From: Syntrophomonadaceae bacterium
GTDB lineage: Bacteria; Bacillota; Syntrophomonadia; Syntrophomonadales; Syntrophomonadaceae
Direction: 5' to 3'
Assembly (NCBI GenBank): GCA_028698695.1
Contig: JAQVWB010000002.1
Location: 1-46,358, forward strand
DNA length: 46,358 nt
In this document: positions 23,195-43,789 of the stretch, one piece after another
How positions within the stretch are numbered: position 1 is the first letter of the stretch
How the letters are laid out: each line of letters begins with the position of its first letter
Translations under genes and position numbers: made by a program
Notes under the pieces: model-generated
What the model was told of the DNA's origin: nothing
Database searches by the model: none
Seen by the model: the letters and a program-made list of their open reading frames with translations, nothing else

Positions 23195-23251
23195 CTATTG
23201 ACCGCCATCAGCATGAATGCTACTATAATGGCAAATGAATATTATTAAACT

Positions 23252-23362
23252 TTCTTCGGGGATGGGTGAAATTCCCTATCGGCGGTAAAGCCCGCGAGCC
23301 GGCAGGCAGGATTCGGTGAAATTCCGGAGCCGACAGTTATAGTCTGGATGGGAGGAGAGGTT
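23252..23362 (+). promoter_or_regulatory. FMN riboswitch (RFN element)
   Basis: CTTCGGGGATGGGTGAAATTCCC...GGCGGTAAAGCCCGCGAGC...GGTGAAATTCCGGAGCCGACAGTTATAGTCTGGATGGGAGGAGA matches the RFN consensus, upstream of ribD. Confidence 0.96.
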
Positions 23363-23402
23363 TGGTGGTGTGTGAAAACATACCATAACTCTTGGTGTCT
23401 GA

Positions 23403-28392: not shown

Positions 28393-30228
28393 CTAGTAAT
28401 CAAATGCTCCAGCGGGAATTTCCAGTGCGGATGCATCGCCTTCTTTTACGATGTCAGCGATAGTCCATACCTGAGGAACCACATTGTATAAATAGTATCT
28501 TGCTGAGTAGACTTTCCCGGTATAGAATTCGTAATCGTAATGTTCGGGTCCAACTTCTTCGGCACGTTTTTGAGCAATCATGGCTTGTTCCAGAATACAC
28601 CATGCACCATAGACGATGGAACTGGCAGTAAGGATTCGGCGGGAATACAGAGGCATCATATCAATTTTTCCTGCACCCATGAATCCTATAATAGCTGACT
28701 GCAGTTCTGCCAGGGCATCAACTGCTTTACCGAATTTTTCGAATTCCTTTTCGAATCCGGCGGCATTCTTGTTGGCATCCGCAAATGCTTTAACTTCTGC
28801 ATACCATTTAGCATATACGGAACCTTTTTTCATGGTCCATTTGCGGCCAATATAGTCTAAGGACTGGATATAGTTGGTGCCTTCCCAGATGGAGTATATT
28901 TTGCAGTCACGAGCGATCTGGGAAACCGGATATTCTTCGCAAAATCCGTATCCACCATAAGCCTGGATAGCTTCACAGCACAGATTCCAAACTTCGTCGG
29001 TGGGATAAGCTTTGGTCATTGGAGTTACGATTTCGATGAAATCGTTGGCTGCCTGTCTCTTTTCCGGATCCGGATCCTTGGCACGGATATCAAACATGAA
29101 GAAAGTCTTCATGATCATGGCCCGCATTACCTCGACCAGAGCTTTTCCATTTAACAGGGTGCGGCGGATATCCGGATGTTGAATGATGGGAACACGTGGG
29201 CCCTTCATATCAGTCAACGGACGTCCCTGGATACGTTCTTTGGTATAGTCACGGGCATTGTAAACCGCATTGGCGGAACATGCCAGCCCCAGCAGACCGG
29301 TTCCCAGACGGGCAAAGTTCATGCATTGGAACATCTGTGCCATACCTTTGGCTTTGCCGTCTTCTCCTGGAGGATCGCCAATTAAATAGGCACGGCAGTT
29401 ATTATTTTCGCCCATGGCCAGAGAAGCCGTAGCCGAACCAAATTGTCCCATTTTGTGTTCGATACCGGTACACTGAACATCATTGTCTGTCAGAGTTCCG
29501 TCATCTTCTACCCAATATTTCGGAACGATGAACAGCGATATTCCGCTGGTGCCTTCCCGAGCTCCTTCGACTCTGGCCAGGTACAGATGAATGATGTTTT
29601 CAGTAAAATCATTGTCTCCGCCGGTGATGAATATTTTACTCCCTTTGATTTTGTAAACACCAGGCACATCAGTGGGATAAGCTTTGGAGAGAATATCCCC
29701 AACATCGGAACCCGCAGTGGCTTCAGTTAAACACATGGTTCCTGCCCAAGTTCCATCCATCATCTTGGGAAGGAATTTTTCCTTCAGTTCTTCAGAAGCA
29801 AAGGCTTCAATCAGTTCTGCAGAGCCGGTAGTCAAACCAATATAGGGCATGAAAGCCGGATTGCCGGCTGCCAGCATCTCGGTACAGAAGGCGAAGAGGA
29901 ATTGCGGCATGGTCAAAGCATCTTCGCCAAAGCCGATATTGGCAGTTCCCCAGCCATCCTGCTGCAGTTTGTGGAACAGAGGACCAAAGGTAGGTGGTGT
30001 GGTTACTTTGCCATTGGCAAAGCTGCAAGGATTAGCATTTCCATCTTCATTACTGGGTTCAATGATTTCTTTGACCATTTTACGGAAAGGTTCTAGAATG
30101 GATTTTACATCATCCTTGGAATAATAATCAGCAAAATCTTCGTAAGCAAATACTATTTCAGTGGGCAGCCACTCCTGGGCTATAAATTCGAAATCACGAG
30201 TGTTCAAATAAGCAAAATTAGACGCCAT
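28393..30228 (-). CDS. Acyl-CoA dehydrogenase (about 600-aa type with C-terminal extension)
   Basis: MCLTEATAGSDVGDI, KIFITGGD, QAYGGYGFCEEYPVSQIARDCKIYSIWEGTNYIQ. Confidence 0.95.
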   Translation of the reverse strand: MASNFAYLNTRDFEFIAQEWLPTEIVFAYEDFADYYSKDDVKSILEPFRKMVKEIIEPSNEDGNANPCSFANGKVTTPPTFGPLFHKLQQDGWGTANIGFGEDALTMPQFLFAFCTEMLAAGNPAFMPYIGLTTGSAELIEAFASEELKEKFLPKMMDGTWAGTMCLTEATAGSDVGDILSKAYPTDVPGVYKIKGSKIFITGGDNDFTENIIHLYLARVEGAREGTSGISLFIVPKYWVEDDGTLTDNDVQCTGIEHKMGQFGSATASLAMGENNNCRAYLIGDPPGEDGKAKGMAQMFQCMNFARLGTGLLGLACSANAVYNARDYTKERIQGRPLTDMKGPRVPIIQHPDIRRTLLNGKALVEVMRAMIMKTFFMFDIRAKDPDPEKRQAANDFIEIVTPMTKAYPTDEVWNLCCEAIQAYGGYGFCEEYPVSQIARDCKIYSIWEGTNYIQSLDYIGRKWTMKKGSVYAKWYAEVKAFADANKNAAGFEKEFEKFGKAVDALAELQSAIIGFMGAGKIDMMPLYSRRILTASSIVYGAWCILEQAMIAQKRAEEVGPEHYDYEFYTGKVYSARYYLYNVVPQVWTIADIVKEGDASALEIPAGAFDY

Positions 30229-30276: not shown

Positions 30277-30536
30277 AATAAGATTCCTGTTGTCTACGGT
30301 TTCCTATAATAATTTTTATATCTCACCTCCTATAAAATAAGCAATTGTTAGATACATTTTATCTACCAGTAATTAAAGTTACCATAAATTATAACATATC
30401 GGAATTTTTAGAAGATAGCCTATATATTTAATTACAAAAGGCATTATCGACACTCCTTATAATTATTTCTCCATCTATTAATGTAAATCCTGTTTTAAAG
30501 GAGCAAAGTTTTAAGATTATTTTTAGAATTAATGAT

Positions 30537-30644
30537 TGATGCCACTGCAAAAATCTGGTTTGGATGTATAAATATGAAGGAATCCTGGTGAGGGAATATT
30601 TATACATCCAAACTGGCGCAGTATACCTTTTTGCAGTGGCATCA
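30537..30644. repeat. 108-bp nested inverted repeat
   Basis: Outer perfect 17-bp arms TGATGCCACTGCAAAAA / TTTTTGCAGTGGCATCA (30537-30553, 30628-30644); inner perfect 18-bp arms GTTTGGATGTATAAATAT / ATATTTATACATCCAAAC (30558-30575, 30596-30613). Confidence 0.9.
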
Positions 30645-30657
30645 TAATTCAGTTATA

Positions 30658-30691
30658 AAGAGATACACCCACTGCAGCAAGTGTATCTCTT
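30658..30691 (-). terminator. Hairpin downstream of the gene remnant
   Basis: AAGAGATACAC / GTGTATCTCTT perfect 11-bp stem with 12-nt loop. Confidence 0.6.
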
Positions 30692-30721
30692 AAAATAATA
30701 TAAACTTATATTAACAATAAA

Positions 30722-30834
30722 TTAAAAAGCCAGCACGCAACTGGGGTAATTATCTTTCAGGTACTTGGCAATTTCAGGTGATTGCAAAGCTGCTCCCAGT
30801 GCCTTGATAGTATCTTTGTAAATGATGCTAAGTT
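30722..30834 (-). pseudogene. C-terminal remnant resembling an NlpA/MetQ-type substrate-binding lipoprotein
   Basis: Minus-strand translation ...KLSIIYKDTIKALGAALQSPEIAKYLKDNYPSCVLAF* resembles the family C-terminus; no matching upstream domain. Confidence 0.45.
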
Positions 30835-31377
30835 TTACAACCTGCCGGGAGGGTCTTTCTGCAATATAATTTTAGTTACGAGGCCACCTCGAACCTGAAA
30901 TACTATACAGCGATTATTATCATTGCCATAAACTGCATCAAAATCATGCAGGTTGTCAACTTTATGCACCGAGGCGTAAGACTGACCATACTTGTCCACC
31001 ACGGAATCAAATGATTCGCCAACCTTGGCCCCTCGGGCAGTAATAATTTGATCATCAGATATATGCATTTTATGCAAAATATCACTATGTTCAGTAAAAG
31101 TAAACAGACAGTCTAAATCATTCGGGGAGTATATGGTACTAAGACCTAGAATCTCCCCATGCGGAAATACTTTTAATACGTCTGCACTGGCAGAACTGCC
31201 AATCTTCAGAGTATTATTGTTGTACGTAAACATGAAATCAGTATCTTCCAGCTCGATACTCTGTTGCGGATATTCAGTCACAAGTTTAGCTTGATTTTGT
31301 GAAATATAAACACCAAAGATAAAAACCAAAACTGCAATTATTATTACAACAGTGAATTCTTTACGAAACATACTCAT
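30835..31377 (-). CDS. Hypothetical protein with N-terminal TM anchor
   Basis: MSMFRKEFTVVIIIAVLVFIFGVYISQ anchor then a soluble domain; RBS AAAAGGAGT upstream. Confidence 0.65.
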   Translation of the reverse strand: MSMFRKEFTVVIIIAVLVFIFGVYISQNQAKLVTEYPQQSIELEDTDFMFTYNNNTLKIGSSASADVLKVFPHGEILGLSTIYSPNDLDCLFTFTEHSDILHKMHISDDQIITARGAKVGESFDSVVDKYGQSYASVHKVDNLHDFDAVYGNDNNRCIVFQVRGGLVTKIILQKDPPGRL

Positions 31378-43725: not shown

Positions 43726-43742
43726 GTAAGTATTAACGCATG

Positions 43743-43780
43743 ACAATAATAAAGGAGGCCCAGGCCTCCTTTATTATTGT
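43743..43780. terminator. Near-perfect 38-bp palindrome, bidirectional terminator
   Basis: ACAATAATAAAGGAGGCC-CA-GGCCTCCTTTATTATTGT between convergent genes. Confidence 0.8.
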
Positions 43781-43789
43781 CTATTTTTA

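Follow-up and report, generated by a model that had tools for sequence, protein, structure and literature searches.

A nested inverted repeat in a Syntrophomonadaceae genome is probably a short, internally deleted MITE with IS1182-type ends

Analysis of the window (the whole stretch of 46,358 nucleotides examined here, from contig JAQVWB010000002.1 of a Syntrophomonadaceae bacterium) identified a 106-bp non-coding palindrome at positions 30538 to 30643 that is most probably (probability of about 0.88) a short, internally deleted MITE with IS1182-type ends, mobilized in trans by a transposase of the IS1182 family and now stranded. The initial annotation had offered a MITE-like element, a structured RNA, and a REP/RIT-type repeat as possible identities. 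The first of these is supported by the dispersed copies, the ends matching those of full-size insertion sequences, the 6-bp duplications, and the empty sites described below, and a puzzling palindrome at this locus is settled as ordinary transposon debris.

Read directly from the sequence, the element contains two concentric pairs of perfectly complementary arms. The left terminal inverted repeat (plus strand, GATGCCACTGCAAAAA, positions 30538 to 30553) is the perfect complement of the 16-bp right terminal inverted repeat (minus strand, TTTTTGCAGTGGCATC, positions 30628 to 30643) and has one mismatch to the consensus end, GATTCCACTGCAAAAA. Inside it, the 18-bp left inner arm (plus strand, GTTTGGATGTATAAATAT, positions 30558 to 30575), which is conserved among copies of the family, pairs perfectly with the right inner arm (plus strand, ATATTTATACATCCAAAC, positions 30596 to 30613). 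The arms are separated by a 4-nt left spacer (TCTG, positions 30554 to 30557) and a 14-nt right spacer (TGGCGCAGTATACC, read as GGTATACTGCGCCA on the minus strand, positions 30614 to 30627), the latter being subterminal and conserved on one side only in alignments, and they enclose a 20-nt remnant loop (GAAGGAATCCTGGTGAGGGA, read as TCCCTCACCAGGATTCCTTC on the minus strand, positions 30576 to 30595), at which alignment of short and full-length copies places the junction of core loss. These spacer and core lengths, as well as the perfect 18-bp inner pair, had been described correctly at the outset; the outer pair, given as 17 bp, is 16 bp long, the additional pair (30537/30644) belonging to a flanking duplication. 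That target-site duplication, which the initial annotation had not clearly seen, is present with one mismatch (5/6), as ATGATT at positions 30532 to 30537 and ATAATT at positions 30644 to 30649.

The element is intergenic, between the 3' end of a minus-strand ORF (positions 30835 to 31377) and the start of a minus-strand gene for an acyl-CoA dehydrogenase (positions 28393 to 30228), and it contains no ORF of its own, as had been noted. It also does not resemble a simple terminator, again in agreement with the initial annotation: the T and A tracts are part of the stem itself, a T-run after the hairpin is absent on both strands, and the terminator-like hairpin adjoining the element (about positions 30658 to 30693) is separate from it. 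Predicted folding was very stable on both strands (z of −7.7 and −9.2 compared to 200 dinucleotide shuffles, none of which folded as well). The window contains 27 perfect inverted repeats of 12-mers spaced no more than 110 nt apart, compared to 0.75 expected from mononucleotide shuffles, with terminators making up part of this count. None of the 34 arm pairs of the window copy is broken, while about 29% of its unpaired positions (roughly 11/38) differ from a consensus written by hand from the alignment, and at the two arm positions that depart from this consensus both partners differ (GATG/CATC and TGTA/TACA). Intact arms beside changed loops could reflect selective pressure on the ends, correction of one arm by the other, or a parent that was already palindromic, and the pattern does not tell these apart.

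A BLAST comparison of the element to its own genome (G000, a Syntrophomonadaceae MAG of 2.0 Mb in 261 contigs, 80.8% complete) and to related genomes, as had been proposed, recovered diverged copies or fragments at about a dozen dispersed places in the former, at 74 to 91% identity, some of them full length (on C142 and C133) and others partial. Matches among relatives were found in 11 of 61 genomes, every one within Syntrophomonadaceae. The 16-mer of the outer arm, allowing at most one mismatch, occurred in 28 of the 54 genomes of the family, and a reversed control pattern occurred in none. What looked like a 2-kb element in G007:C137 was instead a pair of distinct copies with a gene lying between them.

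The consensus terminal inverted repeat, GATTCCACTGCAAAAA, is common to the family copies and to full IS1182-like elements. In G025, three near-identical elements carry it at both ends as an inverted pair 1,904 bp apart (about 1.9 kb) and encode a 570-aa transposase with DDE_Tnp_1_6 and DUF772 domains (Pfam, above cutoff). The best NCBIfam model for this transposase was IS1182, matched over nearly its full length with an E value of 1.2e-40, although the score of 139.8 bits lies below the curated cutoff of 270. Clear 6-bp duplications, AAGAAT and AACCTC, flank two of the three elements. The G021 assembly (2,936,195 bp in one contig) holds six near-identical elements of about 1.9 kb with GATGTCACTGCAAAAAG ends, 51%-identical transposases, and duplications of 6 to 7 bp; two TAG stops suspected in the transposase of G021 precede its long open frame and do not interrupt it. 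A search for IS1182-family transposases found none in G000 or in its sister species, G001, both assemblies being only about 81% complete, and because none was found in G000 the window copy is probably now stranded. An autonomous partner missing from the same genome is common for old MITEs and does not define them.

In the mechanism that we propose, an IS1182-family DDE transposase would recognize the outer 16-bp arms in trans as terminal inverted repeats and would cut AT-rich intergenic DNA with a 6-bp stagger and join the ends there, giving rise to the 6-bp duplication. The inner arms are the hairpin base of the full-length element, the structured loop core of which was deleted earlier between two CTCC direct repeats, and as a last step the window copy would have become stranded. 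Of these steps, the ends, the duplications, the empty sites, and the deletion junction were observed.

Fetched loci were scanned for paired ends, which yielded 67 candidate elements of the family and its relatives. Perfect 6-bp flanking duplications were found at 31 of the 67, compared to 1.1 expected when flanks were re-paired at random, and the true duplicated fraction is higher, since the 67 include pairs of ends that came together by chance. Empty sites, which the initial annotation had suggested seeking in sister strains, were clean for two sibling copies: the copy at G001:C48 is missing at G000:C234, the copy at G000:C31 is missing at G001:C34, and in each case the site in the sister species has a single copy of the target. 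The window locus in G001 (and in L092, probably the same genome) also has no element but is not a clean empty site, as it holds 36 nt where about 10 would be expected; the window insertion is therefore not cleanly dated, because of the approximately 26 extra nt. Among 69 orthologous acyl-CoA dehydrogenase loci, only L092 could be aligned across the intergenic region, the others being too diverged. A gap in G001:C11 (L199) corresponds to about 2.5 kb of methionine-transporter-like genes, present where the window (about position 30817) has neighboring bases.

The duplications, together with the transposase-type ends, point to a DDE transposon and away from the REP/RIT-type repeat named in the initial annotation. 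A REP/RAYT-type repeat mobilized by an HUH (single-strand) transposase would share the palindromic, intergenic, and repeated character of the element, but it is an extremely improbable source given the target duplications, the DDE-type terminal repeats, and lengths of 106 to 270 bp. HUH/REP elements are not known to make such target duplications.

Full-length relatives of the element are hairpins of about 260 to 270 bp with a GC-rich core in the loop. Short copies in G000 and G009, which belong to two genera, all break between GACTCC and T(G/T)CATATT, and the full form carries two CTCC repeats at this break point. By this alignment, the window copy is an internally deleted member of the family, which lost a structured core of about 150 nt between the two CTCC repeats. 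The short copy in G009 (L104) is flanked by an intact AATTAT duplication, an indication that short copies were mobilized in their short form; alternatively, independent recurrent deletion may account for the shared junction.

Alignment of 35 full-length copies gave 41 predicted pairs in the core, 21 of them with changes on both sides; RNAalifold missed helix P3 in this first alignment. In 28 more diverse cores, for which P3 was placed manually before counting, 24 of 31 pairs were changed on both sides, and both-side changes filled 117 cells compared to 32.6 in shuffles, a signal that was destroyed by sliding the partners. The support for P3 depends on a structure selected after inspection. The core comprises six helices with strong covariation. 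A covariance model of the core detected it in 34 of the 63 class genomes, most abundantly in G034 (at least 51 copies), and in 25 of 399 genomes of a phylum-wide sample, 13 of them outside the order of the host; the E values of this model are rough, but with the threshold unchanged 374 sampled genomes were without a match. In the usual view, MITEs have no conserved interior. Absent from Rfam, strongly covarying, widely spread, and removable, this core is unlike the usual MITE interior, and whether it is required for spread, or acts as RNA or as DNA, is a testable question.

The strong covariation of the full-length core, the very stable fold of the window copy on both strands, and its unbroken arm pairs beside altered unpaired positions would also suit a hairpin that is kept, whatever its origin, for RNA work on behalf of the neighboring genes, such as a processing site or a terminator-like or regulatory stem. 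We regard such a role as very unlikely. Copies lie at unrelated loci, the site is unoccupied in the sister species, the covarying core is missing from the window copy, and no T-run follows the hairpin. The orientation of the core among co-directional neighbors (9 sense versus 8 antisense) speaks against a fixed cis role in one transcript, and a search with Rfam covariance models matched neither the element nor the core. For the window copy, with arms that are transposon ends plus inner arms, the structured-RNA identity raised in the initial annotation is not supported; it bears only on the covarying core that this copy lost.

The core also occurs between other outer ends. In G067 and G030 it lies between GAGACCACTGAAAAAGT ends, several of the G067 copies having GGACGGTCC-like duplications of about 9 bp, and two other IS1182-family elements, one in G022 and one in G021, share these ends and 9-bp duplications. 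Loci of this second MITE subfamily and its partners include L254 to L258 and L285 (G067), L324 (G022), and L327 (G021); the target of the subfamily looks like a GGGACGGTCC motif in repeated form. In G005 (L259 to L261), the same core is enclosed by outer arms of a third kind (GGCGGTGAGG...). In G290 and G313, from another family, most core copies that were read (9 of 11, counted by eye from a table without a formal null model) have a flanking direct repeat of 17 to 30 bp, often a whole terminator-like hairpin (L321, L325, L335, L346, L353 to L358, L361, and L362), and look as if insertion had duplicated the terminator. A search of the open-licence literature found no description of a terminator-duplicating element or of a repeat of the present kind in Syntrophomonas.

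Of the IS1182-family copies examined in G290, 13 of 20 share a single insertion point, an ACGT in the apical loop of the core hairpin, and are found there in either orientation (L325, L335, L346, and L373 to L389; ends CAGACTGTGTG, ACGT duplication). Tentatively, and at somewhat less than even odds, the full-length relatives may contain a previously undescribed structured module, about 140 nt long, that is spreading in Bacillota with a variety of transposon ends: IS1182-type ends with duplications of 6 or 9 bp in Syntrophomonadaceae and, in two genomes of another family, flanks made of a duplicated terminator-like hairpin of about 21 to 30 bp. Compensatory changes would maintain its six helices, and in one genome (G290) its apical loop would be a preferred landing site for an IS1182-family element. 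Such a module, which the window copy has lost, could be mobile as a structured RNA or as a hairpin of DNA.

These loop insertions demonstrate that nesting occurs elsewhere, and the several unrelated outer ends around core hairpins would likewise accord with the window feature being the remains of nested insertions, with a palindrome (the inner part) and a second element (the outer part) having inserted one into the other. Such an origin is nevertheless unlikely for the window copy, as the outer ends, the asymmetric 14-nt spacer, and the inner arms in Syntrophomonadaceae travel together as a unit in many copies, so any nesting would date far back, and today all these parts move as a single element. 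A single internally deleted MITE is the preferred reading, and its affinities lie with known IS1182-type elements.

IS1182-type MITEs have already been described in Methanosarcina acetivorans, where ISMac2-related MITEs are likewise short, non-coding, and multi-copy, with terminal repeats common to an IS1182-family element (PMC3852290). Those elements are 160 to 169 bp long, with repeats of 25 to 26 and a listed duplication of 4 or 0 (PMC3852290). In contrast, the element described here is 106 bp long (about 260 to 270 in the full form), has repeats of about 16 and a duplication of 6, and additionally contains inner arms and, in the full form, the covarying core. The window feature is a further IS1182-type MITE, and its family is new in having a covarying, removable core. 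Among other repeats, bcr1 folds into a conserved structure. Like the present family, bcr1 and other Bacillus cereus repeats are dispersed Bacillota repeats of 100 to 400 bp with mobile-element features, but by their description they are set apart in being tied to TTTAT motifs and limited to the B. cereus group (PMC6542083). REP/BIME elements are also intergenic palindromes but measure 20 to 40 bp and are without transposon-type target duplications (PMC3733652).

Two further structured features were observed in the window: a perfect inverted repeat, with arms of 19 bp and a loop of 2 nt, at positions 43742 to 43781 (GACAATAATAAAGGAGGCC / GGCCTCCTTTATTATTGTC) and an FMN riboswitch at positions 23248 to 23363 (RF00050, 106 bits).
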